This document shows, one piece after another, positions 4,452 to 41,935 of a stretch of DNA of 64,000 nucleotides (position 1 is the stretch's first letter; the number at the start of each line of letters is the position of its first letter). The stretch is from Xestospongia bergquistia (lineage: Eukaryota > Porifera > Demospongiae > Haplosclerida > Petrosiidae): NCBI GenBank assembly GCA_963965975.1, contig OZ014423.1, forward strand, positions 5,792,301-5,856,300, given 5' to 3'. The notes below the pieces were generated by a model, which did not search any database, was not told the DNA's origin, and worked only from the letters and a program-made list of their open reading frames with translations. The translations under genes and the position numbers were made by a program.

Positions 4452-4601
4452 TTCTTTGGCTTCTAAACTGTATTACTAGTTTCTTTGAGGGGAGGGTCTG
4501 CCTATGCGAGACTAAGTATACACTACATAAAATTCCATACTGGAATCGTATGTCTTCTCAATTAGTGGTTGTCATACACTAAGCTCTTCTTACTAGTTAA
4601 T
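4452..4601. promoter_or_regulatory. Shared bidirectional promoter, module copy A
   Basis: The 150 bp between the divergent start codons of the death-fold/coiled-coil gene (-) and the B-box/NHL gene (+, taking ATG 4602). Both genes run outward from it, so it must carry both promoters. No TATA box is obvious. The matching interval in copy B is 9325-9482. Confidence 0.6.
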
Positions 4602-7559
4602 ATGGAGCCTAGTCTTGTGTTCGAGCAACAACTTTCTGAAGGATGTTCGAAACATCCAGGAGAGAGTATTCAAACTTACTGCAATACCTGTAACGAGTTG
4701 CTGTGCTCAAGATGTCTTATGAGGGGACACGATAATCACAAAATCTCCAGCTATTCGGACTATCTTATGCGCCGTCTAAAGCAGGCAGAAAAACATCTTC
4801 ACAGGTTGTCAGGTATTAAGCAGAGAGCAGAAAACTTAAAGTCTCGCCTATGTATTTATGGGAATGAGTTTGAGAAGTGCTATGATGATTCCTTAAAGAC
4901 GTTGAACAACTTTGAAAAGGTTCAGGTTGGTATGAAAGCGTGGAAAGAAAGCGTAACAGCAGAACTGGAACGAAAGAAAACTGTTCAACTACATCAAATT
5001 GATAAAGTTATTGACAGTAATGGTGACTTAGAAGGTTTGGTCATTAAATTGCCCAAAGTTTCGATTCACAAGCTCTTCAAAGAAACTCTGCCATTGAAAG
5101 TTAAGGAGCTTACACCAAATTCTGTAATAGCTCTGAAGAATACTTACTATCACGTGCGACGCTATAATTCTAGCCATTATGATAGATCTAGTATTGCAAG
5201 TAGTCAATCTGATATTTTAACAACAACATCACTGTGTGAAAGTTCTCGATGTGCCAGTAGTTTTACAGATCGTGATGAGGACTATGATTCAATGTCTTCA
5301 TATGTTACAGCATCAGATGGTCCAGATAGACTAGAGTCCAAGTTTAAAGATGTTCTATGTAATTCTTTAGAAGAAACAGAGAGTTATGATACATTTGTTG
5401 GATCTAACACTAATGAATTACTCATACAACCTGGACATAGTGTAGATGAAGAATATACATATGCACCTCACTTTGTATCGCAGACCACTCAATTTGGTCA
5501 TCCTTATCAGCAAGAAAGAGATCATTCCTCTTTACAGTCCCAGTCCTTGTCAAATAATCCACAGCAATGGGATGATCACAAAGATATACCACCACCTCTT
5601 CCATCTGGTCATCCTAATCAGCAAGAAAGGAAGCTTTCCTCTTTACAGTCCCAGACTTTGTCAAGTAATCCACAGCAATGGGATGATCACAAAGATATAC
5701 CACCACCTCTTCCATCTGGTCATCCTAATCAGCAAGAAAGGAAGCTTTCCTCTTTACAGTCCCAGTCCTTGTCAAGTAATCCACAACGATGGGAAGATCC
5801 CAAAAATATACCACCACCTCTTTCATCTGGTCATCCTAATCAGCAAGAAAAGAAGCTTTCCTCTTTACAGTCCCAGACTTTGTCAAGTAATCCACAGCAA
5901 TGGGATGATCACAAAGATATACCACCACCTCTTCCATCTGGTCATCCTAATCAGCAAGAAAGGGAACTTTCCTCTTTACAGTCCCAATCTCATGTTAGCA
6001 AAGATTCAACCAGCTGCAGGCAACAACAACCTTTTCCATTGTATATAAATATACAGGCTAAGGACAAAGAGTCTATTCCTTCAAGAATACGCTCAAAAAG
6101 TGAATACTCACATTTAGACTACTTTCGTATGGAACATCCTCCACCTTTACAAGGAGGTCATCATCCTATTCAAAAAACCAAGTCTGCTCCATTTTTTTCA
6201 AGATTGTCTTCATCCATCATTCCAGCTGTCTCCCCTATTCAAGAACAGCTTCCTTCTTCACCTGACCCTTATCTCCTACCTTGTCCATCTACTTCAGGTT
6301 CAATAGAATCCAGGAAACTAAATGCCACTAATGCCAGCGATAAAGATATTGTGCCACCACATTGTGACTATGATAGCTTGGAAAATGCAGAACGGGCAAC
6401 ACACATGAAATCTAATCTGTCACTTGAGGAACCCGAACATATCTTGCCTGATGAAGTCGTGTACGATGATCCTTTAACATTGATAGCATCTCAAAGTACC
6501 AATCAACCCTCTCAACCTACTCCATATCAACCCCTCTATTCAGCAAACAAAGTTCAGCCATATCATCCTCTAAACGTTACAAGTCAACTTTCTGGAACTT
6601 CAAACATGGATGCTAGCCATTTAATGAAGGATACAGAATATAAAGAAACAATTATTCGACCATCAAATATATTTGTAAACAGCTGTCTTGCTGAAAATCC
6701 TGGAGAATATGTTAGCCTGTATGATGTATGTGTAAATCAAGATGGTTCCATGATCTTTAGTGACCCCAAAAATTTGTGTTTGAGAATTTTACTGGGCACA
6801 ACTGAATCATCAAAACGAATGACCAAACGTTTCAAAAACAACATCCATGGCCAACCACAAGCAATTGCATATGATAAATTACACCGACGAATATTGGTAG
6901 CATCAGACGACTGCCTCACTCAAGTAGAGTATAGTGAAGAACTCAAAAAGTTCAAATCAAGGAAATTAATCAAAGGGTTTACACCATTGTCCATTACCTG
7001 TACTATGACTGGAAGTAGTTCATCATTATATGCAACTATATGGCCTAAAGTGGGAGAACCTTGTGTTCATCAATTAGATCATAATGGCCACTTTCAAAGC
7101 AAGTTGCATTCATCAGATATAGCAAAAAAGCCACAAGGAATTGATTATAAAAGATCATATTTAGTCGTTTCAACCCTAAAAGATGGATGCCTGATAAAGA
7201 TTTCACCTAGTGGTAATCCATTGTGGGAAAGTAACGTGGATGCTAGAACATCTGGAATTCTCCAGCAACCATTTGGTGTGGCTATTCTACCAAACGAATA
7301 TATTGCTGTTACAGAGTGTAGTGCTCATCGTGTATCAGTTTTTTCAAAAGATGGCAGGCTAGTGTTAAGATTTGGTGAGTTAGGCTCAGATCCAGGAAAA
7401 TTTAATACACCTCAGGGAATTGCTGTTCGTCTTAATAAAGAGTTGGTCGTGGTTGACTCTGGCAATGACAGGATACAAATATTCTCATTAGATTCTCTTG
7501 AGCTGCCACAGTCTTTACATGTAGAATTCAAAGGAAATTATGAATCCATACCATTTTGA
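4602..7559 (+). CDS. B-box / coiled-coil / proline-rich / NHL-propeller protein, copy A (RING-less TRIM-like)
   Basis: Single exon, 985 aa from ATG 4602; an in-frame ATG at 4569 would add 11 residues, but alignment to the paralogue (MDRFVFERQ) favours 4602. The N-terminus has a B-box2-type zinc site, C-x2-H-x8-C-x2-C-x4-C-x2-C-x4-H-x2-H (CSKHPGESIQTYCNTC, then LLCSRC and GHDNH), followed by a helical coiled coil to about residue 150. There is no RING, so E3 ligase activity is not expected from this chain alone. The middle is disordered and holds five copies of a 37-residue repeat ending in IPPPLP, a possible SH3/WW/EVH1 ligand. The C-terminal ~290 residues form an NHL-type beta-propeller (QQPFGVAILPNEYIAVTE; GKFNTPQGIAVRLNKELVVV). 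The domain order recalls TRIM2/3/71-like proteins, but no one-to-one orthologue is claimed. Confidence 0.85.
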   Translation: MEPSLVFEQQLSEGCSKHPGESIQTYCNTCNELLCSRCLMRGHDNHKISSYSDYLMRRLKQAEKHLHRLSGIKQRAENLKSRLCIYGNEFEKCYDDSLKTLNNFEKVQVGMKAWKESVTAELERKKTVQLHQIDKVIDSNGDLEGLVIKLPKVSIHKLFKETLPLKVKELTPNSVIALKNTYYHVRRYNSSHYDRSSIASSQSDILTTTSLCESSRCASSFTDRDEDYDSMSSYVTASDGPDRLESKFKDVLCNSLEETESYDTFVGSNTNELLIQPGHSVDEEYTYAPHFVSQTTQFGHPYQQERDHSSLQSQSLSNNPQQWDDHKDIPPPLPSGHPNQQERKLSSLQSQTLSSNPQQWDDHKDIPPPLPSGHPNQQERKLSSLQSQSLSSNPQRWEDPKNIPPPLSSGHPNQQEKKLSSLQSQTLSSNPQQWDDHKDIPPPLPSGHPNQQERELSSLQSQSHVSKDSTSCRQQQPFPLYINIQAKDKESIPSRIRSKSEYSHLDYFRMEHPPPLQGGHHPIQKTKSAPFFSRLSSSIIPAVSPIQEQLPSSPDPYLLPCPSTSGSIESRKLNATNASDKDIVPPHCDYDSLENAERATHMKSNLSLEEPEHILPDEVVYDDPLTLIASQSTNQPSQPTPYQPLYSANKVQPYHPLNVTSQLSGTSNMDASHLMKDTEYKETIIRPSNIFVNSCLAENPGEYVSLYDVCVNQDGSMIFSDPKNLCLRILLGTTESSKRMTKRFKNNIHGQPQAIAYDKLHRRILVASDDCLTQVEYSEELKKFKSRKLIKGFTPLSITCTMTGSSSSLYATIWPKVGEPCVHQLDHNGHFQSKLHSSDIAKKPQGIDYKRSYLVVSTLKDGCLIKISPSGNPLWESNVDARTSGILQQPFGVAILPNEYIAVTECSAHRVSVFSKDGRLVLRFGELGSDPGKFNTPQGIAVRLNKELVVVDSGNDRIQIFSLDSLELPQSLHVEFKGNYESIPF
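5494..5990 (+). repeat. In-frame 111-bp tandem repeat encoding a 37-aa proline-rich unit
   Basis: About 4.5 copies of a 111-bp unit encoding SGHPNQQER-KLSSLQSQ-...-QQWDDHKDIPPPLP. Adjacent units are nearly identical at DNA level (successive tctggtcatcctaatcagca starts near 5604 and 5715 are 111 bp apart). The paralogue in copy B carries only one partial unit (near 10490-10540). Because the unit is a multiple of 3, the +1 shadow frame is also open across the array. Confidence 0.95.
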
Positions 7560-9324: not shown

Positions 9325-9482
9325 GTTCTATAACTTTGGATATTTCACGCACTGTAGGTCCTTCTTTAGCCGTAAATGCTTCTATAAACAACGGAGGTTC
9401 AGCAAATTCCTCACCCAATTGCTCTATCTGCCCCCGTATGTCTATAATGTATTCGTAATAGATGAACGATAGGACACTGATG
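9325..9482. promoter_or_regulatory. Shared bidirectional promoter, module copy B, containing death-fold remnant
   Basis: The 158 bp between the divergent ATGs at 9324 (-) and 9483 (+). It contains, on the minus strand at about 9330-9410, a short out-of-frame stretch still similar to the first exon of copy A. The former coding exon has become promoter or 5' UTR sequence. Confidence 0.5.
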
Positions 9483-11693
9483 ATGGATCGTTTTGTCTTT
9501 GAGCGACAGCCTTTTGAAGGATGTTCGAAACATCCTGGAGAGAGCATTCAAACTTACTGCAGTACCTGTAACGAATTGTTGTGCCTGAATTGTCTTACTA
9601 AGGGTCATAGCAATCACGAAATCTCCAGCTACTCGGATTATCTTGGGCGTCGTCTAAAGCAGGCGGAGAAACAACTACGTAGATTGACAGGTATTAAGCA
9701 GAGAGCAAAAAATCTGAAATCTCGTCTCTCTTCTTATAGAAATGAGTTTGAGAGATGTTATGGCGAGTCTTTAAAGGCACTAAGCGCCTTTGAAAACGTT
9801 CAGATAGGCATGCGAGCATGGAAGGAAAGTCTTACAGCAGATCTTGAGAGAAAGAAAACTGCTCAATTACAACGTATTAGTGAGGTTACTGATAACAACA
9901 ACTTAGAAGGTTTGGTCATTAAATTCCCCAAAGTCTCCATTCACAAGCTCGCCAAAGAAACTCTGCCAAAGAAGGTTCAAGAACTTACGCCAAATTCTGT
10001 ACTATTTTATTTGACTGATTCTTACAGAAACATGCAACTCCGTTCAAGTACAATGAGTGATCGATGTAATACATTAACTGCATCACTAGAAGAAAGTCTT
10101 CAGTCTGACAGTAGTTATGATGATGATGATTTGGTTTCTATGTCTTCTTTTCGGATCCAACCAACAACAACATACGAAAAGATTCCAGCTGACTTATGGA
10201 GCATTCATGAAGATAAACCACCGCCTCTCCCATCACGTCCACCTATTGAAGATAGACCACCACCTCTCCCATTGCGTCACCCTGTACTGCATACTGATGA
10301 GACAAACAGTGAACAAAGAACACATGTAGTGCAGCCTGGTGAATATAATTCTTTGGAAGAAACAGGGATTTACGACAAAATAAAAGGATCTAATGATTCA
10401 CTCCTGGAACCTGGATATATCATAGATGAAGATATATATCATGATGAATACAAAATACCATCATTTCGCTCTATGTGTCAAACATCTGGTCATCCTAATC
10501 AGCAAAAAAGGGATCATTCTTCTATACAAGGTACACATGTAATGCAGTCTAATGAAAATGTTTTTTTACTTAAAAAAACAGATAAGCAAAATTTATATGA
10601 TGATGTGAAGACATCTCGGACTGCATATCAACCCCTTTATCAAGTAAGTGAAGTTCAACCATATCATCCTTTAAGTGTTGCAAGTCAACTTTCTGCAACT
10701 GCAATGACTTCAACCATGGTTACTTATGCAAGCCATTTATTGAATGATACAGAATGTAAAGAAACAATCATTCGACCATCAAATATAATTGTAAACAGCT
10801 GTCTTGCAGAAAGTCCTGGAGAATATGTTAGCTCATATGATGTATGTGTAAATCCAGTTGGTACCATGATCTTTAGCGACCGCAAGAATTTATGTTTGAG
10901 AATTTTACACAACACCACCGAATCATCGAAACGAATGACCAAACATTTCAAAACTGGTATCATTGGTCAACCACATGCAATAACATATGATCAAATAGGC
11001 CAACGAATATTAGTAGCATCAGATGGCTGCCTCAGTCAAGTAAAGTTTAGTGAAAAACTGAAGAAGCTCAAATCAAAGAAATTAATTAAGGAAGTTACAC
11101 CATTGTCCATTGCCTGTACTACAAGTGCAAGTAAGGGAGATAGTACATCAATATATGCAACTGTATGGCCTAAAGTAGGAGAACCTTGTATTTATCATTT
11201 AGATTGTAATGGTCGGTTTCGAAGTAAGATAGTTTCATTGGATATACAGAAAATGCCATGTGGAATTGACTACAAGAAAGGATATTTAGTTGTTTCAACT
11301 TTAAAAGATGGATGCCTGATAAAAATTTCACCTAGTGGTAATCCATTGTGGGAAAGTAATGTGGATGCTAGAACACCTGGAATTCTCCAGCAACCATTTG
11401 GTGTGGCTATTCTACCAAATGAATGCATTGCTGTTACAGAGTGTAGTGCTCATCGTGTATCAGTTTTTTCAAAGGACGGCAGACTAGTGTTAAGATTTGG
11501 TGAGTTAGGCTCAGACCCAGGGAAATTTAATGCACCTCAGGGAATTGCTGTTCGTCTTTTTAAAGAGCTGGTTGTGGTTGACTCTGGCAATGACAGAATG
11601 CAAATATTCTCATTAGATTCTCTTGAGTTGTCTTTGCATGGAGTAAGAGCTAGTCATTATTCCACACGGATTCAACCTTACACTAAAAAATAA
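9483..11693 (+). CDS. B-box / coiled-coil / NHL-propeller protein, copy B
   Basis: Single exon, 736 aa from ATG 9483; ATGs at 9462 and 9480 are alternatives, but 9483 aligns with copy A (MDRFVFERQPFEGCSKHPGE). It has the same B-box zinc ligands, the same coiled coil and the same C-terminal NHL-type propeller as copy A. The disordered middle is shorter: the 37-aa repeat array is reduced to one degenerate unit, plus two PPPLP stretches (KPPPLPSRPP, RPPPLPLRHP). The last ~110 residues of the propeller are nearly identical to copy A at both DNA and protein level (about 7190-7515 versus 11320-11635), while the middle has diverged. Divergently paired with the coiled-coil copy B gene, so the whole two-gene module was duplicated. 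Confidence 0.85.
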   Translation: MDRFVFERQPFEGCSKHPGESIQTYCSTCNELLCLNCLTKGHSNHEISSYSDYLGRRLKQAEKQLRRLTGIKQRAKNLKSRLSSYRNEFERCYGESLKALSAFENVQIGMRAWKESLTADLERKKTAQLQRISEVTDNNNLEGLVIKFPKVSIHKLAKETLPKKVQELTPNSVLFYLTDSYRNMQLRSSTMSDRCNTLTASLEESLQSDSSYDDDDLVSMSSFRIQPTTTYEKIPADLWSIHEDKPPPLPSRPPIEDRPPPLPLRHPVLHTDETNSEQRTHVVQPGEYNSLEETGIYDKIKGSNDSLLEPGYIIDEDIYHDEYKIPSFRSMCQTSGHPNQQKRDHSSIQGTHVMQSNENVFLLKKTDKQNLYDDVKTSRTAYQPLYQVSEVQPYHPLSVASQLSATAMTSTMVTYASHLLNDTECKETIIRPSNIIVNSCLAESPGEYVSSYDVCVNPVGTMIFSDRKNLCLRILHNTTESSKRMTKHFKTGIIGQPHAITYDQIGQRILVASDGCLSQVKFSEKLKKLKSKKLIKEVTPLSIACTTSASKGDSTSIYATVWPKVGEPCIYHLDCNGRFRSKIVSLDIQKMPCGIDYKKGYLVVSTLKDGCLIKISPSGNPLWESNVDARTPGILQQPFGVAILPNECIAVTECSAHRVSVFSKDGRLVLRFGELGSDPGKFNAPQGIAVRLFKELVVVDSGNDRMQIFSLDSLELSLHGVRASHYSTRIQPYTKK

Positions 11694-12037: not shown

Positions 12038-15000
12038 TTATATTGATGTTGTTTTGTTTTTTAAATATGACCCCCTAATGAAAGAAGCACCACCTTTTTC
12101 CTAAATGAAAACATAATGAGACATGAGTGAACCACAATTTTTACATGTGAATACTTACATTTAAGTTGAAGTCATCATTTGGTTTGTACTTCTTTCTACA
12201 CCCGCGAATACAGCAGCAAGCACATACAATTACAAGGACTAGTAAAATACCACCAATGACTGAAGCAATGACAATTACAGCCAATTGAGCACCACTAAAT
12301 AAACAGTACAATAAAATACCAACTATTGAATAAATATTGCTTACGTTGTGAGAACACAATTACTGCTGCTCAGGTCATACACCTGCCACAATGGACATGT
12401 AGGTACACAAACTAGTTCACCTGTTGTTTGTCTTACAGAGTCCTCTAAACATAAGGAACAATTGAAACGTGAAGGCCCTGTACAACCACTACACTGAGGA
12501 TGACATGGTTGACATTTGTTCTGGTCATCAGTGTAAGAACCATAGGGACAGGTAGCTGTACATTCATTCACAGCACTATATGTGTTGTTGACATTCTTAC
12601 AATGTTTACATTGAGCATTAGTAGGCCCAGTGCATCCTATGCATTGACTATGGCATGGCAGACAGAAATAATCACCATTGATTTCAAGTTGATATTCATT
12701 GCTACCACATATTGGTACACAGACTGTTAGTCCTTGGGAATTAGTGGTTGATGACTGAAGACATGATATACAATCTGTATTGCTGGGACCACTACATCCA
12801 TTGCATTGTGAATGACAGTATTGGCAGTTCGAGCTGTTACCAACAGGACAACTTGTGAGACATTGTACTATTGCATTACCGCTCAAAACAAAAGCAGATT
12901 GGCATGATATACAAGAGTCACCTCCAGCATTATCACATGTAGCACATGTTGCATCACAAGGTCGACATAAGTTTCCATTACTTGTCAATCCTGAGAATTG
13001 CGTCTTTGTATCACTGTAGTATTTAGTTGGACATTGTGAGCCAGATGGCAAACAATTAATCTATTTGATGAGAATATGTAAATTTTAAACTAGTAGTCAA
13101 TAGTTTGTCTACAAAACTTTACCTGGTTGCCATTTGTGTCAAGTATAATAACATCACAGAGACTGCAACCTCCTTCTCCAGCTGTATTTCTAGAGCCAGT
13201 GCACCCTCCTACACACACTGATGAGCATGATTCACATGTTCCAAGTGTTGCATTATTATATGTATTGGCATCAAAACAAGTACGATCTATTGGAACAAAA
13301 ATATGAACATTTTGTCAATACGGTCTTTTAACTTACATAAGTTAGTCACTTTTTTGGTAACAGTAGCAATTGACTGTCCTTGTCCATTTTGTCCCCCACT
13401 ATAGTCATACACACCACCAGCAGTCATTGATATGTAAAGTGTGTCTGCTGTCTCTGCAATATCAGGATCAGAAAGCAATTGATTGGTGTGAGCACTGGAA
13501 AGAGAAATGCTAATTTCATCTAGTCCTGTCTTAATGACAGACTCGGTTGAGTCGAGTTGTATTGTAACTGTGGGATTAGTAAGTTTGTTCTGTAATCTTA
13601 TTGTACTCTGTAGCGACACAGTGTACTGAACTGCCTCAGAGAACTTCAAGACAGTCTTTCCACCTGATCTGATATCAAGATTAAAAGCTACCAACTCTGG
13701 CAGTGTAGTATCAGCTTGATATGCATTTGGTGTAATAGCTGACACATTAACAATATCATTCTGGCTTGTGTCCTGGAAGAGTTTTGAGCCAACATTAAGG
13801 AAAGTATCAGATGAATCAGTAGCCAATAAGGTTCTACTTTTAATTTCATTGAGGTCATTATAGTCAATGTTTAAAGTAATAACAGAGTCAGCCAGGGCAC
13901 CTTGAGTCTGTGGATTTAATGTTCCAGCTTTGAACTGATACATAGAACTAGGTGAGCTTACACTATTTTGTAAACTAAGTTCTGTTGGAGTGAAGGAACT
14001 GAGAAGAACTGACTCTGTATAAGTCATAATCATAACACCAGTATCAATATCAAGATTGTAAGAAGTAAGCATTGGAGCTGTAGTATCTGGTACATAGATA
14101 GCTACCATCTGAGCAATGGTATCAGGAACGCCAATGACATTCCGACCTTCAATATCTTCTGCCATTGTAGCTGGGAAAGAGACATAACTATCACTGGCTT
14201 GTGTTGCCAGTTGCAAGTTAGCTTTGATTTTATTGAGATCTGAGGTGTGAAGGTAAATGTACATCTCATCAGAGCTTTGACTGCTTGCAGTACTACTCGT
14301 AGAGATTGTGTATGTACTACTATCAATGCTAGTTGATTTGTTCTGAATGCTCACCAAGAAAGGTGACACTGATTGTGCATCTATAACATCATTAAATATC
14401 AGTTTCAGCTGGCCTTGGTTCATGTCAAGCTCAGCTGATGATAATTCAGCTAGTGATGTATCTGGTGTATAACCACCATTTGTTAGTCTGATGGCAGAAG
14501 AGATGGGGACAATAATATTAGTATTATTTGCTGTGTCCTTGACTGTTGACAAGTCCATAGCAATATAAGTGTTGCTTTCCTCTGTAGCTAAACCTGCTAA
14601 CAGTTTGATAGCCACACGATCATTTCTAGCCAATTCTATCATCACAGAAAGTCTATCTTCATTGACTGGTGCAGCAAAGCCTCCTGTTAGTCTGTATGTG
14701 ACAGGAGAGCCTGCAGTGCCACTTGTTAAGATGACTCCTGTCAGATTCATTACACTAGCTTGAACTGGCTCGTTAAAGGTGACAAAGAAACTACCATTAT
14801 CAATGTTAAAGGCATCAAATGATGATAATTGAGCTTGAGTTGTATCTTTGATGAAGTTAGATGCTTGGATAGCAGAACCATAAAGAATATCAATAAAAAC
14901 ATTGTTTGATACATCTGTCATATCTGTAATTAAAGAGAGGTAAGAATTCTGTACAGATGTGTATATATCTCTTGCTTTGATCCAATTCAAGTCTGCTACA

Positions 15001-18000
15001 GTGAGTTCTAAATATACGGCAGTACCTTGATTGATACGAGAGTATAATGTTTGATTGTTTAGCACTAAAGTTAAACTGCCAGAAACTGCATTCAATAGTG
15101 TTACATCTGAAGGCCTAAAATCTGCTTCATTTACCACTTCATTGAATGATAAAACCAATTGTCCTAAGTTCATATCTATACTAAAAGACTCTAATACTGG
15201 TGAAGTAGTGTCTAGTATAAACACAGTTGGCTGATGGTAGCTGGCAAAAGCACCAGGTTGGTAGTTGGAATGTAAGAATGGATTTGATCCAATATCACTG
15301 ACAAAGAAGGATGGCAGAGCAATCCAGCAATTTGTACGATCTGTACAGAGATTGAGGTTGTATTTTAAAGCATTTAAGTCATTGCGATGAAGCATAAAAT
15401 CAATTTCTACATGATCTGGAGATGTAAAACCTTCAGTCAGTGTCACAGTTTGACTTGGATTAGTTAGAGCATTTGAGAACTTCACTTGTGTGAAATCAGT
15501 GCTAGAACCATTGATAGGTTCAGAGAAAATGATAGTAAAGATTCCATTATCTAAATCAAAAATAGGAAAAGAAAGAAAGCGTGGTGGGGTCACATCCTCT
15601 ATGAGTGTGGTGACTTGAATAGGTGAAGTTGACACTGATGGCAGTTGAATGCTATTAATAGCTAAACCTTGATCAAATGTGGCATAGCAATTAGCACTTG
15701 TGTAACATACTGGTTGTCTTTTAACATTTATGATATCCTGGATGCTTAGTAATATACGGAAATTGCTTTGTTCTCCTTGTGCAATAACTGTTACATTTGA
15801 GAGTGTTACTAGCTGAGATGAGACAGTTATTGTACTTGTGTTAAGTAGAGTAATTCTGGATGGTATTAAGGTGCTGACATTGACAGGTGAACTGAAATGT
15901 AACGTCATCTGATCAGAATCAAGATCAAGATCAAATGAGGTCACTTGTGGATTTAATGGACCTGAGTAATCAGTTACTGAAGTTGCTTGAATGGCATTTG
16001 CTTGAGCTGGCAAGAAGTTGCCACTATAATCGACAGCAAAATTAGAATCAAGATACAAATATGTATTACTCACTGAACTGCCTAGTTCAGTGTTAGCAGC
16101 AATGGCAATCACATCTTGTGTTAAGAGATCTAATATTATAATGTTACCAGTAGCTCCCTCTTGGCTGGAGTAGAATGGGGAGGAGAGTGTTTTGCTTTGT
16201 GAAGGTGATGAGGCAGTGTTTTGTATTCTAACATTGCCAGGGATTAGATTAACAACAACTTGTTCTGAGAATGTCATTGTGAGTCTTGCTAGGTCAAGAT
16301 TGAGGTCAAAGGATGTAAGTTGTGGTGTCACTGGATCAGTAGCCATGCTAAAATAGTAGACTGGTGCAGCAGTTGCCATGACAGGGTTGTTGCTCAAATC
16401 TTTGACTGCATTTGAAGTAAGACTGACCCCTATGCTTCCAGAATAGTAAGCCTGTTGGTATTTTATCTGTAGTGACTCAAATTTTGTTACACTTATTGTA
16501 TATGTTAAATTGGTGGACACATCTGATGACACGGGTCCATCTGTAAAATCAATGAAAGTAGATAAACCAATGGTTGTATTCAAATATAATGTTAGACCAC
16601 CTCCATTCCAAGAAGTAGGTTGAACAAACTCATTAAAAGTCATCTGTAGAGTTCGTTGGGTTTGATCTCCTGCTTTAAGACTGACAAGCAAAGGAGATGT
16701 TGTGTCTGCCACCACTTGAGAACTAACAATGGGATTGCTGTTAGATATAGCAATGACAGGATTTGTGTTGGCATCATTGACTGTAGAACTGGTCATACTA
16801 AGGCGTGTTGTCAACATACCTTGAGGAACAATGAGGGCTTTGATGTTATTTAATGAGGAGAGTAACATAATATCAATGTTTGTTGCTAGCCCAGTACTGA
16901 GTAATGAAGAACCAGTGATTATCAAGCTATTGGATAAATTAGAGTTATAAATTCTGAGACCAGACAAGTCAAAATTGTCAGCATTGACAACTTCACTGAA
17001 TGAAAGAGAAAGGAGACCTGAATCTAGATCTAAACTGAAGCTATTTAGTATTGGAGATGTGGTATCAGAAATAAATGATGATGGTTGAATACTCTGTGAA
17101 GATGGCTGCAAATTATTTAAGCTGAGATCTTGGAAACTTTCAGAAGTAAAGAATAGATAAGTATTAGCAATTTCAGTTCCAACTGAAGTATCAGCTTTTA
17201 TTGTATTTAGTATTGATGATTGAATTGCAAGAGTTAATTGAGTGTTACTGATGCTGCTAAGAATTATTGCACTATTTGAGAGTGCAATTCCACTTGGCTG
17301 TGTATTAACGGTACCACTAAGCCATATTGCTGATGCATTGAAATAGGTATTTGTCATTGGTTCATCAAAAGTAATGACTATATTGCCAGTATCCATATCA
17401 AAACTATAACTGGTAACAGAAGGACTGGTTATGTCAGATATCACATTAGATATTGATAAAGATTGTGGATTATTACCCTCTCCCTCGGCACTGATAACAG
17501 TATTTGCATTTAATGAAACATTCCATGAAGTATTGGACGTGATAATGATATATTTGATAGCAATAGAATCACTTGAAGTGAACAGAATGCGGACAGCAGT
17601 ACCATTGCTGTTAGCTAGATTTACAGTGCTACTGGAGTCAAGAATGTGCTCCATAAGTCCATTTGTGAGCTTGATTGATGAAAGTACAGTCAGTGAAGGA
17701 TTCAGTGGTGTGTTAAAAGTGAGAGTAAGAGACCCTGTGTTGAAATCTAGAGTAGTAATATGTAGTATTGGTGGATTATCTGGTGTCAATGGTGTGATTA
17801 CATTGCTAGCCTGTACTACACTAGCTGCATTAAGCATATTGCCACTGTAATCAATAGCTAATGGCTCCATCACAAGAATAAATGTATCTGAGATCGTGTT
17901 AGCCAAGTTTGTGTTATTGAGTAACAGCTCGTTATCTTGTTGTTCTAATCTCACAGTTACTGATGTACCAAATAGTCCAGTTTGGTTGTTGTATGCATTT

Positions 18001-21000
18001 GAAAAGAGTGTATAGGTTATGGAAGGATTAGTGGCTGTGTTTTGAATTTGTATGTTTCCAGGAACTGTTAATAAAATGACTGGCTCAGAGAAACTTAGCA
18101 CAAGATTGCCAGTGTCTAAATCAATAACGAATAGCTGGAGAAATGGTTGAACATTATCTTGCTTGGTTGCTGTGTGAACAAAATCTGTGTTGGGAGCAAC
18201 AACGATATTGCCATAGAGATCAGTAGCAAAATTTGATCCAAAACTAACTCTTATGTCTCCAGCATTAGACGATAGAAGGTACAATACTCCAAAAAACATT
18301 TGTTGTGTATCTGACTGGCTGAATTGATATGTCACATTGTCATTTTGTGCAGCAGACCAAGAACCACCAGAGAAGCCACTGTGAGTTGCATTGCTTAGAG
18401 AGTTGTTAAGTGTTATCATCAAACTAGCCTCTGTTAGAGAGGAGAGTAGGACATACTCATTAAAAATGAATGTTATGGTTCCATCTTGAGGTGAGGTAGC
18501 ATCGGCTGAAAATTGAATGACCTGAGGTGGAACTGTATCACTGACAATAGTTATAGCCTTTTGACGATTTGCAGTGTCTATAGGAGCTATAGGATTATTG
18601 GCGACATCATTAATAAATGTTGAAGGTATTGTTATATAGGCACTGGAGCCAGAATACAAAGCCAGTTTGATTTCATTGAGATTACTTGCTATTGTCAAAG
18701 TTAAGATTGTATTCTGATTTGATGACCCAGTAAAGGTTCCCATGATATTAGCTGATGAGGACACTGGATTGGGAGGTGAGTCTTTTGTTAGCGTAGATCC
18801 AGTTGTGTCAAGACTGCTGGTATCAACTGGTTCATCAAATGTCATCGTCATAGAGCCTGAATTAAGATCAAGTTCATAGGATAAGAGATTAGGAAAGGTA
18901 TTGTCATTTACAAAGCTTGCTACTTGAGCACCATATGCAAGCAATAGATTGCCACTATAATCTTCAAGACTTCCTTGCAATAAGAAAAGGAAGGAGTCTT
19001 GCAAACGAGATGCTGTATTAGTGTCAGCTTTTATTTCATTTAATTTCTCAGCAAAAAGTGTTATTGTTATAATGTTACTAGCAGATGAATTAACAAAGGA
19101 ACCAGTAAGATTGTGAGCACTAGGGGGAGAATTAACCAATGTGTTTGTAATATAAATGTTCGACGCATCTAAAACATTTAGTAGTACAGGCTCTGTAAAG
19201 GTCAGAAAGAGTATACCCTCATCCATGTCAAGCAATGATGAAGAAAGCTCTGGAGAAGTGGTATCAGCAACGAAATCAAAACTTAGTGTCTGCATAACGT
19301 TTGTATTCCCTTGACTGCCTGTAAAAGTATTCTCAGCTATTGTGACCATCCATGTCTCAGAAACTCTTATACTTTTAAGGCTGTTAAGATCTGATGTGGT
19401 AATTGATATGTTCACTTTATTTCTAATACTTGGACTATAGAAAGTGACTCCATTATCTCCTGTCAAAGTCTGAGTGTGTGTTTCATTTGTGAATGCTATG
19501 TTATTGGACACTATGGTAGCATCTAATTGTACATTAGTTGATAGGGTTACTGTCAGCACTCCAACGTTCATATCAAGATAAACTTCAGTTATTGTCACTG
19601 GTACACTTGGACTGGGTGATGGACTAGATGATACCGAAGTAGTAGATGTGAGGATAAGGGAGGAGGAGAGTGATGTCAAGGTGGGAGATGGGGTTGTTAG
19701 AACAGAAGTTTCTTCACTAACAGAAGGTGATGGGGAGATAAAGATGGATGTTGATGTTATGACTACAGAACTGCTTGTATCCATAGCAAATGAGATAGTC
19801 ATACTTGTTGTCATGGCAACTGTAGAACTACTGGTAGTCATGATGGAACTACTGGTAGCCACAACAGATGTAGTTGTTTGTGTACTGGTTGATTCTTCTA
19901 TAACAGATGAGGAAATGGTGATTCCAGATGATAGTGCAGGTGTGTTAGTTGCTGTTGGTGATAATACAGTAGTACTTGATGGAGTGATCTGAGCGCTAGA
20001 AATGGTAACTGATACCACTGCAGGGACTATTACGTTGCTAGCCTGAACTGGTGTTGTGTTGTCAAGAAAATTGCCACTGAAATCAATCGCAAAGTTTTGA
20101 GAGATAGATAGAAAAGTGTTATCAGAGCCAGTAGCTATAGTGTTATCAGTTAATAAAGCATTTATATCAGATTGTTCAAGATTAATGAGAAATGATATAC
20201 CAGTCATGCCTACTAGTCCAGCATAACTGCTTGAATTCAAAGTATATAAATTGTTCAGTCCAACACTGTTAGTCAGAACAAGCCCATTACTTGAAAGCAA
20301 CATTAAAACATTTTCTGAGAAATTAAGTTGTAATGTGCCTTGAGGTAAGTCAAGACTGAAAGCCTGAAGATTAGGAGCTATTGGATCATTTTCAATTGAA
20401 GTGAACAACACTGGTGCAGGTGGTGATATAATAATGTTACCTCGTAAATCAGTGACAAACTCTGATCCAAATGTAATTGTCATATTACCAGAGTAATAAG
20501 CAATCTGGAATAACACAGGAAATGATCCAGTTAGATCTTCACTGCTAAAGTGATAAGTTAATGTCAGATAATCATTCATAGTTACAAGACCACCACGGAA
20601 AGTGTTAAAGGTGTTGCTACCAGTAACAGCACTTATAAGCACCAGAGTCAAACTACTAATATCAAATGACCCTGGATCAACATATTCACTGAATGTGAAA
20701 CTCATGGAATAGTTTTGAGGTGGACGTTGATTTGGAGCATAAGAAACTAAAGAAGGATGGCGCATATCTGGAGAAACTGATGCTGCAATTAATGGATCGT
20801 TTGAAGCAATCGGTTTTACATTATTGTTGCTGGTATCAGAACAAGTACCTGAAGTCATGAAGAGATACAAATCAGAAGAATTAGCATTGAAAATAACTAG
20901 TTTAAGATCATTCACTTGTTGTGTTGTCATTTCTAAGCTTACAATTGTTTGAAATGAACTGAAAGTTGTCATTAGTTGTCCTGTTAAGGTAACTGTGTTG

Positions 21001-22602
21001 CCTTGATTGTTACCTGTTAATGAAATGAAAGAGGGATTGAAGCTGGATTTGCGGATTGGTTCAGAGAACGTTAAATCAATTGTAGCAAAATCAAGTGAGA
21101 TTTGAAAGGAAGAAAGAAATGGTGGAACAGAGTCTTGTGTAAAGACATTTGGTGCTAGGGCACTTCCTGTATCTGCTATTAAATTATTGCTTAAATCAGT
21201 AAAACTCTCTGGTTGCAAATAAAGATAGGAACTAGAATTTATACTGGCAATGTATTCATCTGCTTTTAAACTCAAAACAGTTTCATTTGCTATAAAAATC
21301 ACAAACGAGAGCAAATCTGAATTCTGTGTGACTATTCCATCACTTAAACTATAGTTGCTCAAAAATGGTGCTGAGCTGGTGTTAGTAATGTAGACTACTC
21401 CAAGATTGTAAGTTAGTGGATCAATTGGCTCATCAAACATCAAGGTAATAGTGCCTGTGTTCATATCTAAAGTATATGTTAATATCATAGGTGATGTTAT
21501 ATCAGGATTAAAGCCATTTAAGCTTAGTAGCGTATCACCATTACTGATACCACTTCCAGTTTGTGCAGTACCAGCTGCTATTTCTACTTGCCATGTTGTA
21601 AAATTAATAGAGGAACCAAACTGCAGTTTTAAAGTATTCTGATCTGAAGCTAGCAAATTAATTATGACATTGTCTGTAGGAGTGATTGGGGTGTCTCCTT
21701 CTGCTCCAGAAAGTGTCAAGGAAAAGTTACCATTTTTCAGTGTGACTCCAGTAGGGTCAACTATAGACACATTCACATTGAATTGCAATGTAAGTTGACC
21801 AGAGTCAAGATCAAGGATAGCATCAATAGCAGATAAAGAGGCAATGTCAGGTTCAAAAAAAGTAGCAGCTAGTGGAGTTTCAATAGGTACATTTTGTACT
21901 CCGTTAGAATTTAGAATAAAAGACCCAAGTGTAACATAACTAGTGTTCAGTGATACTAAAAGACTATTATCATTTTTGATAGCTTGCCAATCTGCACTGG
22001 TCAATGATATTCCAACCTGTGCTAAATTATTAGGATCAAAAGAAGAGCAACTGCCACCAGTTGGTGTGTATGTAGATCCACCAACACTATCAGAGCTATG
22101 CAGTGTTATTGCTGTGATATCGCATGTATCAGGATCGACATTTTGATTAAATACCATTGCAAGTAGATTTTGCGCCAAATTAACACCAAATACACCAAGC
22201 ATTGGGCCATCACCTTGAGCTGTGATTATCAAAATAAAATATATGTAAAGCAAAGTGTTTAAACAAAATCCAAGCTATAATTATGAATAATGCTAACTGA
22301 ACTGTCCTTCAGTTCCAATTAGTATAATCTGTAAATATTACCAGATATAACCTAGTTTTTAATAAAATCAACAACAAAAAAGCAATTGTAATCTGGTATA
22401 GTTGCTCCAATGACCCATAAACGTATTAATTTAGAAAAGAAAACAACTATTAATTTTGTATGGAAAGGTTATGTAAATAGTAAATAATAGTAGTTCGATG
22501 TTTTAAACTTCAATACATTAACTAACCTTGTACATAAGGGCAAAGTGCACCAATACATAGTACAGTCAAGTAGAACAATTTGGAAATCGAACAATACTTC
22601 AT
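12038..22602 (-). CDS. Giant single-pass surface protein: about 23 SbsA-like Ig-like repeats, mucin-like linker, furin-like Cys-rich region, TM
   Basis: Six exons reconstruct one 3345-aa chain: 22602..22527 (signal peptide MKYCSISKLFYLTVLCIGAL), 22219..13337 (one exon of 8883 bp), 13286..13123, 13060..12345, 12294..12159, 12100..12038; all junctions are GT-AG and in phase. The large exon encodes about 23 units of ~125 residues, each opening with a pattern like DTTSPxLxSFxLDLDSGxLxLTFSEPV and ending near SDTYL...DxSGN. This resembles the bacterial SbsA/Big_5 Ig-like fold (inference). A Ser/Thr-rich mucin-like linker (19602-20000, about residues 765-897) separates units 6 and 7. Exons 3-4 encode furin-like Cys-rich repeats (CHPQCSGCTGPSRFNCSLC). 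Exon 5 holds the membrane helix (AVIVIASVIGGILLVLVIV) followed by CACCC. The cytoplasmic tail is about 40 residues and ends NKTTSI. A large adhesion protein or receptor is likely; I recognise no named orthologue. Confidence 0.85.
19602..20000 (-). other. Mucin-like Ser/Thr/Pro linker within the giant surface protein
   Basis: About 130 residues made almost entirely of Ser, Thr, Val and Pro (for example SSSPSPSPSVPVT, TSSSIMTTSSST), interrupting the Ig-like array between units 6 and 7. Such a stretch would be expected to be heavily O-glycosylated and extended. It sits exactly at a boundary of the five-unit super-repeat. Confidence 0.85.
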
Positions 22603-22757: not shown

Positions 22758-22921
22758 TTTAAGCACTTTTTATATTTCATATCACCCAATACAACCATGC
22801 AGGCGAACAGACTATCAGCATACTTACCTTCTTTTTCTCTCTGTTATGAAGTGCACTACTACAGACCACCTTAAGGCAAACAATTAAATAATACAACAAG
22901 GTTATGAATATCGTTTATATG

Positions 22922-30739: not shown

Positions 30740-33700
30740 TCATTTAAGTGTTCTCGTGCTTAATGAACCAACAGCATTAAAAGATGGCTCTTCCTGTAGT
30801 TCTTGATAGAGCAAGGAGCCATATGATCCAGGTAGAGGACGATATCCAGTAGAAGATTTTGCTGAATTGCTTCGAAGATGTCTCAATCTATATGAACCAG
30901 TGAGATATTAGTAATAAAAACTTGGAATATATACCTTTTTCCTACATATTCAACTTCAGGTTCTTCCATACTGTACAAAAGGAAATAGCATTGTTTTTCA
31001 CATTACAATTAATATATAATACCTTGGAACATTAAAAGATAAGCCATACTGTGCTAACATATTTTCATCTTCCTAAAAAAATTTTAAAAAATAATTGTAA
31101 TACTTCTCTCATGTGATACGAACATTTCCCATTGATGACTGATTTGAAGGGTCTTCAATATCAGTGACTTTTAGTCTCATTCCTATACTTTCGATCACAT
31201 TCTCCTCTTGAACTTTCTGTTCATCATCTCCAATTACAGGAATTGTAAGAGGATCGAAAAGAACGTCTTTAGGAGCCAAAGGATGCTGATATGTAGCAGT
31301 ATTACCAATGTCCCAGAACTGCTTTTGACCAAATGTACCTTCAGACGAAACAAATACCTATTTTTGTTCTTATATTAACTTTTATCTTACCAATATAGTG
31401 TCCCTCTTGTGTCCAAACTCTGACGGAGCAATCACTGGAAGCAGTGACAAGAAGACTCCACTCTTCAATGAAGGACAAACTGAAGACAAAATGTAAATTA
31501 ATATTTTTATATTATTGTAATTAATTTTATTACCTATTAATAATACTAGTATGTGCCCTCCATTTTATAATACCTAAAACAAAATACAATAAAAAATATG
31601 GACAATTGAATGACAAATTAAATTGTGACAGATTTTCCTTACATTTTGGTCTGGTTAAACTGGTTTTATCTTTACAGAATAATCTGATGTCCCAACGACA
31701 TACAAAACCTTCAATATCTCCAGTGATCAGTTGTGTGTTTGCAGTATCAACAACCATATCAGTAATACATTTATGTGAAGACTACATACAAAGAATTTAC
31801 TGACTATATTATAACTCTCTAAAAAGTCTTACTGCTTGAAATAAACCCATTGGTTTCTTTGTGTCATGGATATTCCAGAAATGGACATAACCTGTATAAC
31901 AGGAATTGTATACAAGAGGAATAATGAATATTGTTTTACCAGCTGGTCCACTAGCCACAAGAGAAGCAGATGTTCTAGATCGTCTCGTCTCTAAATAGAG
32001 CAGTCTGTGGATGGCATAATCACCTTCATCTGAAATGTTAGAGATATTCAAATTATGAAAGAAATCAACATCATCATGAAATTATTTTTTAAATTTTATT
32101 TCTGTAGTAATGTTTCAGTTGAACAAACCTATGGACACTGATCTCAGATAATTTTGTGTAGTTGATACTTGAAGTCGTTGTATCATGTGACCAGATGTCA
32201 TACTCCAGAGAATAATCTAGACATAAAATATAAATTAGTGTATTGTACCTAGAGGACTTACTTCTCCATCAAAACTAGCTGTTGCTAATGTTGTAGGTAG
32301 ACAAAATGTTATACTTGTAATGTCTTCATGATGTACACATGTCTATCATATGAACATCACATGTACAATAGTTTCCATGGATTTAATGTACTCACTGATG
32401 ATTTATCCCATCCTTCAATTGGAAATATGGAAGATTGGACAGCTGCTGAATCAAGTAGATCCTAAAAGGAAAAATACAATATATTTAGCATAGACAAGGA
32501 AATAATGTCTTACAGAAAATACATTGAGTTTTCTGTCCCAACCAACAGCAACAATATATCTTAAGAGAGTAAGAATTAAAACTTGATGTTGACTGTTAAA
32601 TGATTATTAATTACCTTATTTGGTTAACTGAAACAAATTTAACATCAGCTACTTCTGCATCATTTCCTGAGATGAAAACCATCTTAATGATCTTGTACAA
32701 TAATTGTTAATCTTACCTTTATCTAGTGTCAACAAACAATGCCCATTATTAAAATTCCATAACTTAATTTCTCCATTTTCTCCTGCAGTTACCAATCTAT
32801 GTATGACAATAGCAATGTGTCATACATATTGTTCTGTTGTACCTTCTTCCTGACGAGTCTAGATCAATAGCAGTGATACGTGAGTTATCATGTACTGAAG
32901 CAAACTCAAAGACACATTCTCCAGTGATAATGTCCCAGACTTTAATGACCTAATAAAGTACTTAATTATCATTTCAAACATATTTAATTTCTTACAGACT
33001 CTTCACATGCAGTGATAACTAATCCAAAATTACAAGAATACGACATGGCGGACACTGGAAGACGATGTGTATGAACCATATCTGGCTTTGGTAATCCACC
33101 CAAAAGAGAGAGTTGAATAACATGAATTTGTTCTGTAGCTATGACCAGGTATTGTCGGATAATATTGAAGTGAAGTGCTAAAGAGAAAAAGAGAGAGAGA
33201 GAGAGAGAGAAGGTAGAGTGGATTATATCTGACAGTAAGGAGAGAGGGGAATATACCTTCTACTGTTTGATAGACTTTATGTGTAGCTGATGTTACAGTT
33301 GAGAGACAAGTCTGTTCAATTGAGTCCCATACTTTCAAAGTATTATCATTACCAATGCTATAAATCCTATTGTTTGTCGAGTCAATTCTCACACAGAAGA
33401 CAGGTGATCCTTGACCATATAGTGATCCAATGGATTTTGCTGTGACAAAGGGGTTCCAAATACGAATCACTTGGTCCATTCCTCCAGTTACTAAAATATT
33501 GTTCAGAGTGCAATAATCAAATGTAGTGATGCCTTTGTTAACAGAAAATATCTTCTGATCTCCGCTCATTCTAAGATAAACAGATTAAAAGTGTATAATT
33601 ATTATAACAAAATATTAACTCTACCTAGTTTTAGCAGGTATGATAGTTTTGGTCACTCCACGAATTGATAAACTTCCCATTTGATTTGCAGGCAAACTGC

Positions 33701-36344
33701 TCCTTATAGAATATGATCGAGAGTGTCTCTGTCCATGAAGAATGGCATCAACTGGTGTACTGCCAGAAGGAGTACCTGAACAAAGAGGACATCTTGTTAC
33801 ATTAATTTATCACTGTAACTTACCCATAACTAAGCTAGCCTTGGAGTCATTAGATGACGAGGCAAATAATCTCAATTCTCCAATATATTGAATATGAGAT
33901 ACCCAATTAGAATGCAGTTTCCATCTAATGCATTATTAACATATGTATTATTGTCAATTATATATGATCTACAATTTACTTGAATAGTTTGACTCCAGCT
34001 ACTGATTCACCTCGAATAAAACTATGACAGTTATAGTTAAATAATAATATAATAATATAATAATAATATAATAATAATAATAATAAAATAATATATATTA
34101 ATTACCCATCAATTGGAAATGTTGGTATACCATTCTTCTTCGGACCCAGTTTCATAATTCTGTAATATCAAAATTAATAATTGTAATATCAATTTGATTA
34201 ACTAAATAAAATTTAATTGTCTAATAATAAAAATATACAATAGCTTTTATCAATTATTTACTTGAATGCTTCAGGTATATGAGGAATAGAAAGAACAGTG
34301 ACACAACCCTAATAAAAGAAAGAACAAATTTGAAAGCTCTCTCTTTTCCTCTCCCTACCTGTTCATCTCCCACTAATAGTATACAGTCATTTTTATTCTC
34401 AGGGTTGCTCCTAGAGAGAGTAGAGTATAATAACACAGTATACATGTTTGTTAAACATACCAGAAATCTAATTTCAAAGGTGTACAATCTAAGTTAGTTA
34501 TTTGACAGTAAGGCTCAAAGTTAATCATCTCATAGAATTGAACTTCATTGTCACTGTAATCATAAAAACAATTTAAGCATTTAAATTTTTACTTTGTATC
34601 ACTTACCCTGTCGTCATTATAATTTTTCCATGGGCAGTTGCAAGTGACATATCTGATATCCACTTTGGTTTACCAAGTATTCCTGATTCAGTCTATTGGA
34701 TATAATATGAAATAAATGACAGTTTTATACAATTTACTTACTTTTCTAACTCGTTTTGGTTTCATATCATTTGTCCAAAAACACACAACTCCATCCTATA
34801 AAATTGTTATATAGTTTCTATCAATAATCTGCATGTTTCAAAATTGATTACATTATAAAACTTTATTAAACTATTTAATCAACTCATTAAATCATATTAA
34901 TGTATTAAAGTTAATGTTTTTTAGTATTATGCTTTTAATTTTGCTACAAACATTGTCAAAATAACCTACCAGATACTTACTTTGTTTAGTATATATGCAT
35001 ACATTATATTATATTATTATGTACATATATTATATTATTATGTACATATATTATATTATAATGTACATATATTATATTATTATGTACATATATTATATTA
35101 TTATGTACATATATTATATTATTATGTACATATATTATATTATTATGTACATATATTATATTATTATGTACATATATTATATTATAATGTACATATATTA
35201 TATTATAATGTACATATATTATATTATTATGTACATATATTATATTATAATGTACATATATTATATTATAATGTACATATATTATATTATAATGTACATA
35301 TATTATATTATTATGTACATATATTATATTATAATGTACATATATTATATGTATGTATTGAGCATGTGCTTTATATCTCACTTGACTACAGGTCACTAGA
35401 GGACCATCTTGAAGATTTAAAATACGACAGATAGAATCTTTATGAGGTCCTTGTATTGGAACAGATGGTAGCGAGAAAACCACCTAAAATACAATAACAA
35501 TTAATAAACAAATCCATTACAATAATATTATAATGAGATATTACCTCTTTAGCTTTACTTTGAGCATCCTCTTTCTCATACAATTCAAGATACATATATG
35601 TACAGAATTCATCCTATAATTACATAAACCTTATAATAATTACATATTAAGTACATACCCAATCAATTTCTCCTTTTGAGTAGCAATCAATTTTATCAAA
35701 GAAAACCTTAATTTCAGCATTACTCTAACAAGAATATATTACAATTATTTCTATTATCATAAATATTTATTGAAATACCTTTCCCTTTAGTTCCGGGAGA
35801 CTACGAAAGAACTCAATAAAACCATCTAAATTTAGTTTACCCTTAGTGTAACTAGGAAGATCCTAAAATTAATCTATTGGTCAAGTTGTATCATTATGAG
35901 AATAAATACTTGAAATCTTTGTTTCAGTTCCATTAAATGTTCTGGATAGAGGAACTCTTGCACCTAATGAATAATAAATAGCAGGTTATGTAGAGACCAT
36001 CTACTTACCTTCTTTCTGCCAGATTGGTGTGTTTTGGGGGATATTATGGGTGTACGAGATAGCTGTGGCGTGTCTGGAGGTGATTCCCAAGCCTGTTTCT
36101 GCTTCTTATAAGATTCTTTTGCTGCTTCTTGTTTAGCATCATCAAATCTGACTGCAGATTTGGTCAATTTCTCTGATCCATGTAATGTTAAAAGTGATCC
36201 AGCTGTACCTTCTGCTGCGGGACCACTTCCTGGTTTTGGTTTTAAGAGGGAAGCCTCAGCTGCTAGTCTTTGTGATGGCTGTGACATGTCTCTTGCTGAA
36301 CCTCTTCGGGCAGTTGCAGGACGTGAAGGAGATCGGAGTGACAT
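30740..36344 (-). CDS. EF-hand / WD40-repeat protein of the WDR49-WDR64-EFCAB8 group, multi-exon
   Basis: Probable start ATG 36344 (MSLRSPSRPATARRGS); the frame is open to 36362, so an upstream 5' exon is possible. Stop at 30742-30740. After a low-complexity head, exons near 35500-35950 encode two helix-loop-helix units; the loop DCYSKGEIDWDEF keeps D1, G6, D9 and E12 of an EF hand but has lost side-chain ligands at positions 3 and 5, so calcium binding is doubtful. Many short exons then encode WD repeats (VWDSIEQTC, VIKVWDIITGEC, GEIKLWNF, ILWSM, SVRVWTQEGHYIGTFGQ). The final block TFGQKQFWDIGNTATYQHP, with its C-terminal peptide, is characteristic of the EF-hand/WD40 group linked to cilia in other animals; the ciliary role is inference. 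One intron (about 34799-35390) is filled by a 21-bp tandem array. Confidence 0.78.
33184..33212. repeat. (GA)n microsatellite
   Basis: A gagaga run in an intron of the EF-hand/WD40 gene. Similar short runs occur in introns at about 24966-24984 (ga), 25310-25323 (tc), 29581-29600 (gt) and 56512-56531 (tc), often beside the splice acceptor. Confidence 0.8.
34035..34098. repeat. (TAA)n microsatellite
   Basis: A run of taa/aat trinucleotides with a few interruptions inside a short intron of the EF-hand/WD40 gene. Confidence 0.85.
35010..35350. repeat. 21-bp AT-rich tandem satellite in an intron of the EF-hand/WD40 gene
   Basis: About 16 copies of a 21-bp unit with core tacatatattatattattat; copies alternate between attattatg and attataatg endings. 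Because 21 is a multiple of 3 and the unit has no stop in several frames, long spurious tyrosine/isoleucine-rich open frames appear on both strands. The array lies between the exon ending ...GPLVTCSQ and the exon starting DGVVCFWTND. Confidence 0.95.

Positions 36345-40851: not shown

Positions 40852-41935
<1,084 letters not shown>

Follow-up and report, generated by a model that had tools for sequence, protein, structure and literature searches.

A single exon of 8883 bp that encodes a long row of bacterial-looking immunoglobulin-like (Ig-like) units raises the question of what such a gene makes, and of how its array arose in an animal. The exon lies in a stretch of 64,000 nucleotides from the sponge Xestospongia bergquistia (assembly GCA_963965975.1, contig OZ014423.1, positions 5,792,301 to 5,856,300 of the forward strand), hereafter the window. 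A sequence-only reading, made from the letters without database searches, had noted about 23 tandem units resembling the bacterial Big_5 fold, joined through normal introns to furin-like repeats, a transmembrane (TM) helix and a short tail, and had proposed either lateral acquisition followed by amplification or amplification of an ancestral exon. Judged from sequence features and structural models, the product of this Ig-array gene consists of a signal peptide, 23 cysteine-poor acidic Ig-like units, a Ser/Thr-rich linker, a furin-like stem and, beyond a TM helix, a short basic tail, and by the same kinds of evidence its units are of a diverged Big_5/S-layer-type Ig-like fold. A five-unit period runs over units U02 to U16 in three old copies (about 30-33% identity), which is a new observation.

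The big exon (coding exon 2) was placed at 13337-22219 on the minus strand, with bounds taken over from the sequence-only reading, within a minus-strand frame of 2995 open codons (13287-22274). It encodes 2961 amino acids and is symmetric (phase 1-1). The other five coding exons were picked by eye at AG/GT sites, and the six exons joined in frame on the minus strand from 22602 to 12038, giving a coding sequence of 10038 nt and 3345 amino acids with a single terminal stop. All five introns were of the GT-AG type, with lengths of 307, 50, 62, 50 and 58 bp. We infer a six-exon transcript for this gene. Coding exon 1 (22527-22602) held the ATG and, by hydropathy, a predicted signal peptide, and ended in phase 1; the residues VQA precede what we take to be the likely cleavage site. 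The Cys-rich region began in coding exon 3 (13123-13286), and coding exon 4 (12345-13060) encoded furin-like/growth-factor-receptor domain IV repeats. The Cys-rich part matched the Pfam families GF_recep_IV (PF14843; E 3.7e-16, 59.5 bits against a cut-off of 29.5) and Furin-like (PF00757; E 1e-6, 29.1 bits against a cut-off of 26.8). Coding exon 5 (12159-12294) contained a hydrophobic TM helix (about 12222-12278, amino acids 3286-3304) followed by a basic stop-transfer segment, and coding exon 6 (12038-12100) supplied the remainder of the tail and the stop. The tail behind the helix is 41 amino acids long and ends in KTTSI, in agreement with the class I PDZ-ligand pattern. A possible 5' non-coding exon, also read by eye, was seen at 22826-22880 on the minus strand, with AAGAAG at its end before gtaagta and a guessed start.

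The introns and the furin-like matches bore out the proposed joining of the array to animal-type partners, and the exon was indeed as large as had been described. It had been called striking in a genome whose exons here are mostly 50-200 bp; however, long intron-free open reading frames (ORFs) are not unique here, as two nearby plus-strand B-box ORFs of 743 and 997 amino acids were likewise uninterrupted. As a separate observation, skipping of the big exon, from exon 1 (22527-22602) to exon 3 (13123-13286), would preserve the frame because phase 1 meets phase 1, and a possible short furin-like/TM isoform is predicted.

Hidden Markov models (HMMs), built from nine clear units and then rebuilt from all 23, laid 23 units of about 120 amino acids end to end along the big exon, in line with the number first read. 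With coordinates computed from the protein bounds, and all on the minus strand, unit U01 was located at 21858-22205, U02-U06 at 20025-21857, U07-U11 at 17784-19622, U12-U16 at 15966-17783 and U17-U23 at 13341-15965. A mucin-like Ser/Thr-rich linker of 134 amino acids (54% serine plus threonine) occupied 19623-20024; it gave an extra weak match of -7.8 bits to the first HMM and -7.5 bits to the rebuilt one, and U07 as cut starts with the last part of this stretch. Conserved positions among the 23 units included D1 (19 units), P5 (19), D13 (18), F23 (21) and E25 (17), and the DxSGN motif kept its D in 18 units and its N in 18. The 2961 residues of the exon included 249 aspartates and glutamates against 79 lysines and arginines, 7 cysteines and 40 N-glycosylation sequons.

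Apart from lag 5, where it was 27.1%, mean unit identity stayed within 20.6-22.8% for all lags up to 15. Tandem Repeats Finder reported no array within the big exon, and since unit identity was also only 20.6-27.1%, the array is not a near-identical repeat expansion introduced by assembly. An artefact of assembly or prediction, to which the unusual exon size might point, is hardly credible in view of the 2995-codon open frame, the divergence of the units, the lack of near-identical tandem DNA and the confident fold predicted for one unit.

The elevated identity at lag 5 was not reached in any of 20000 permutations of the unit order (0/20000), and the maximum over lags 1-11 was reached in 1/20000. 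A tree of the 23 window units and 23 bacterial units grouped U05/U10/U15 (support 100/98), U06/U11/U16 together with U17 (97/91), and U03/U13 (99/89); U02/U07/U12 were grouped less firmly (83/84), U07 and U12 being flagged as long branches. These last three units share a Trp near position 86-90, which is also found in U18. The blocks U02-06, U07-11 and U12-16 aligned with 29.7-33.1% identity over 594-599 aligned residues, and whole-block alignments scored highest on average at offset 5 (609), followed by offsets 10 (466) and 6 (419). Several results argue against a simple periodic array. U04, U09 and U14 were left ungrouped in the tree, U08 stood apart from U03/U13, mean block identity failed to separate offset 5 (31.0%) from offset 6 (31.1%), and the period failed for U17-U23 and for U01. 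The best single block pair was U04-08 against U09-13; the block boundaries are therefore not fixed, and the split into copies U02-06, U07-11 and U12-16 is a choice, the period alone being demonstrated. The suggestion of amplification can accordingly be put in a more specific form by permutation, tree and block alignment: the array would have grown inside one exon through old duplications, and a five-unit stretch was probably copied twice long ago in the process.

The affinity of the single unit was weaker by direct search than by profile comparison. The whole big exon gave no Big_5 (PF13205) match in Pfam, where only a sub-threshold HMA match appeared. Searched singly, 8 of 20 units (U01, U02 and U07 being outside the scan) matched Big_5 at E up to 10, the best at 8.5e-4, while member 1 of the scanned units did not match it. 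A hand-typed unit consensus matched Big_5 more strongly than any unit (E 1.8e-4, 22.6 bits). The curated Big_5 cut-off of 23.6 bits was not reached, the typed consensus falling 1 bit short and the units being weaker by E-value. By hhalign, the unit profile aligned with a bacterial Big_5 set over 85 columns with a probability of 91.3 and an E-value of 9.4e-7, compared with 0.066 for the best of 20 column shuffles and 0.1 for the reversed profile. This set comprised 31 domains (30 distinct), 30 loci coming from one phylum-level scan and one from outside it, and was gathered by Pfam's own model in the phylum of a Bacteroidales metagenome-assembled genome (MAG) that contained a partial relative; L021, one of the domains in the set, was in addition weakly matched by the unit profile (E 0.97). 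Big_5 was found at E up to 1e-8 in 59 of 61 genomes of the phylum of that MAG. In the alignment, the D-x-T-x-P opening, the F-x-E motif and the D-x-x-N ending corresponded. By profile, the units are homologous to Big_5. They differ in having an LDLDSG turn in place of the longer P-x-(D/N)-x-A segment of bacterial Big_5, and the window's protein also differs in its animal-type fusion partners.

The reverse search pointed the same way. With a profile of 20 units, 12 of 296 genomes from the phylum of the MAG gave matches at E up to 1e-4, the strongest of them at 4.8e-8, and 11 of the 14 distinct ORFs underlying 17 profile-matched bacterial places carried Big_5 over the cut-off. A 23-unit profile placed 19 of 132 ORFs under 1e-3, a count that includes overlapping, pre-selected loci, whereas reversed ORFs and 20 column-shuffled profiles placed none at the same loci. 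This count is not independent, most of the loci having been retrieved by a profile that itself derives from this gene; the independent test is hhalign. NCBIfam gave five scattered matches, with a best E-value of 0.038. Some of the bacterial results weaken the link to Big_5. One of the 14 matched ORFs had Big_5 below the cut-off (L014) and two had none (L006, L017). In only 7 of the 11 ORFs (L005, L007, L008, L009, L010, L011 and L018) did Pfam's best Big_5 stretch overlap a unit-profile match under E 0.1; it lay elsewhere in L001, L012, L013 and L015, although in L012 it coincided with a unit-profile match of E 0.18. L017 is a bacterial FG-GAP protein, in which the full-length unit-profile match fell in a domain unnamed by Pfam. 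Membership of a known metazoan family without bacterial affinity was not seen in the searches, which covered bacterial, phage, plasmid, viral, PDB and Pfam data.

Structure prediction agreed with this assignment. AlphaFold2 modelled U08, with 20 units as the alignment, as a confident Ig-like sandwich, with a predicted local distance difference test (pLDDT) score of 95.9 and a predicted template modelling (pTM) score of 0.87. In Foldseek against PDB the top three ranks went to SbsC (4uic, E 5.7e-4; 2ra1, 1.1e-3; 4uj6, 2.9e-3) with TM-scores (TMq) of 0.56-0.58, only the first rank lying under E 0.001. SbsC is a bacterial S-layer protein, secreted and forming a lattice; like the window's protein it is a surface protein with Ig-like domains, but the window's protein is anchored by a TM helix and carries furin-like repeats. 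Behind SbsC came sialic acid esterases, an amylase, PcoC, titin and antibody domains, with E-values from comparable to poorer; that of the first esterase was likewise 2.9e-3. In BFVD four matches fell under 1e-3, three of them phage by listed organism and one unnamed. A two-unit model of U13-U14, from a 12-row alignment, reached a pLDDT of 89.5 and a pTM of 0.80 and is consistent with a defined inter-unit junction. Its best PDB match was FMG1B, the flagella membrane glycoprotein of Chlamydomonas (9gos, E 5.5e-6), followed by SbsC at ranks 2 and 3 and a region of biofilm-associated protein (Bap) at rank 8. Two features of this search detract from a specific match: the remaining rows were mostly antibody fragments and therefore indicate a generic tandem Ig resemblance, and the match to 9gos had a TMq of 0.33 and a root-mean-square deviation of 10.2 A, so that the geometry is not shared globally. 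Alignment A4 was not used for structure, neighbouring pairs in it being out of register. Together with the hhalign alignment and the sub-threshold Pfam matches, the SbsC matches upheld the bacterial-type Ig-like unit that had been read from the letters.

Bacterial relatives of the unit lead to the question of how the array came to be in this genome. The big exon had a GC content at third codon positions of 0.272, and two neighbouring ORFs had 0.269 and 0.284. In codon use, the big exon correlated with these ORFs at 0.84 and 0.87 and with the gene's own short furin-like exon at 0.69; the two neighbouring ORFs, which are similar to each other, correlated at 0.96. In the tree, 22 of the 23 bacterial units clustered on a single long branch (100/98) away from the window units, and the remaining one (from L017) made a weak pair with U20, joined by long branches. 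For the bacterial rows, full-length unit-profile hits at E up to 0.05 were taken from one phylum and duplicates dropped. A pattern-based scan of a bacterial genome collection gave one partial relative, in the Bacteroidales MAG, with 49% identity over about 51 residues to the hand-typed consensus rather than to a real unit. No match was obtained in phages by tblastn, the only plasmid match by tblastn was unconvincing (E 0.06, over an arsenite-transporter annotation), and pattern-based scans of viral contigs gave no confirmed match.

Host-like third-position composition and codon use, spliced-looking flanks and the lack of a donor in these searches leave the recent form of lateral acquisition unsupported. 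The bacterial-like fold, the intron-free block and the codon correlations of the big exon (below that between the neighbours, and lowest with the furin-like exon) would fit a recent bacterial acquisition, which is nevertheless very improbable given the third-position composition, the flanks spliced in frame and the near-empty phage, plasmid and bacterial searches. An ancient transfer, in which a bacterial Big_5 unit entered an ancestral lineage and was then amplified in one exon, is doubtful but far less so. Big_5 is the best family affinity of the units, the array has no internal introns, and a symmetric phase 1-1 exon could have entered as a block; host-like codon use is neutral for an event of such age. 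Against it stand the lack of a donor clade, with 22 of the 23 bacterial units apart on their long branch in the one phylum sampled, and the giant eukaryotic surface protein of similar fold in green algae, which makes a long eukaryotic history of the fold possible.

That algal protein, FMG1B, also bears on what the gene product may do. FMG1B is described with 34 Ig-like units of about 110 amino acids and about 22% pairwise identity, each unit having one conserved disulfide, with a Cys-rich domain, N-glycans and, behind a disordered linker, a TM domain of several helices; it forms a protective coat, and its loss increases adhesion (PMC12021028). Both proteins are giant membrane-anchored chains of low-identity Ig-like units with a Cys-rich domain, whereas the window's protein has one TM helix in place of the multi-helix domain. 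We regard FMG1B as the closest architectural analogue found, one without sequence similarity. Two observations count against the comparison: the window's units are nearly Cys-free and lack the per-unit disulfide described for FMG1B, and FMG1B was not among the PDB sequence matches (E up to 10) with either the unit profile or the big-exon protein as query. The match in design makes a coat or adhesion-regulating rod the most likely role, and we somewhat favour the view that the product is a giant type I single-pass cell-surface glycoprotein serving as a membrane-anchored coat or adhesion rod. At about 4 nm per unit, the 23 units would form a long semi-rigid rod of up to about 90 nm off the membrane. 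N- and O-glycans would give a mucin-like coat that keeps surfaces or particles at a distance from the cell, and by analogy with FMG1B in Chlamydomonas the coat may regulate adhesion. Residue conservation suggests a possible binding of Ca2+ by acids near the unit ends (D1, D13, E25, DxSGN), by which the junctions would be stiffened. Against this, Sap, a beta-sandwich S-layer protein, assembles without calcium (PMC8056022).

The same features could be arranged differently. In an adhesion receptor, the outer units would attach to a partner, be it matrix or a second cell's copy of the protein. The array would be a Ca2+-stiffened stalk comparable to those of cadherins or bacterial adhesins, with a tail that would signal or dock to a scaffold. 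The type I layout with its furin-like stem, the acidic residues conserved at unit ends, the Bap region among the two-unit matches and the C-terminal pattern, a possible PDZ ligand, are in keeping with such a receptor. The window's protein also resembles the furin-like/GF-receptor-IV single-TM animal proteins in its Cys-rich stem and TM helix, but its 41-residue tail leaves no space for a cytoplasmic domain such as a kinase. No terminal binding domain could be distinguished, none being found by Pfam and U01 being another unit by HMM, and loss of the closest analogue, FMG1B, raised adhesion (PMC12021028). We consider the receptor distinctly less probable than the coat or adhesion rod.

Outside the Ig-array gene, the window contained several other features. 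The two similar single-ORF B-box genes lay on the plus strand at 4566-7559 and 9462-11693; the first also matched the NHL repeat (TRIM-like) and contained a 111-bp tandem repeat at 5495-5986. A deaminase domain of the cytidine/guanine type (MafB19-deam, E 3.1e-23; dCMP_cyt_deam_1, E 4.9e-22) was encoded by an uninterrupted minus-strand ORF at 40852-41472. The minus-strand ORFs at 33030-33584, 59374-59841 and 62452-63192 matched WD40, DUF1295 and aldose-1-epimerase, respectively. At about 46141-47808, short GGACC/AAAGGAG-type tandem repeats with raised GC suggested a collagen-like gene, unconfirmed by family search. Together with the B-box/NHL ORFs and the very short introns, these collagen-like repeats are in keeping with an animal, plausibly a sponge like Amphimedon. 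Clean minisatellites were found at 512-829 (24-bp unit, 13.2 copies) and 35000-35350 (AT-rich 21-bp unit, 16.7 copies). Rfam and tRNA scans of the window gave no matches.

No published description of the Ig-array protein was found in a search that left subscription journals mostly outside its coverage and supplements unsearched, and the PF13205 literature held no paper on animal proteins by title. The terms Ig-like and immunoglobulin did not occur in the main texts of PMC4784904, PMC7971027 and PMC13342648 in the form available, their supplementary gene lists being outside the scope. The authors of PMC12021028, which deals with the solved algal coat protein, raise the possibility of a protein class that was overlooked since its units lack sequence repetition. 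It is a speculative thought, and one that we hold at some distance, that animals, or at the least the sponge lineage, and green algae both build coats from giant membrane-anchored arrays of bacterial S-layer-type Ig units, as an ancient eukaryotic class overlooked for the low sequence similarity of its units or by repeated, independent recruitment. The gene described here shows a five-unit-period repeat array inside one symmetric exon, and the Ig-array protein provides a concrete sequence model for asking whether animal and algal coats share ancestry or recruit the same bacterial-type fold.

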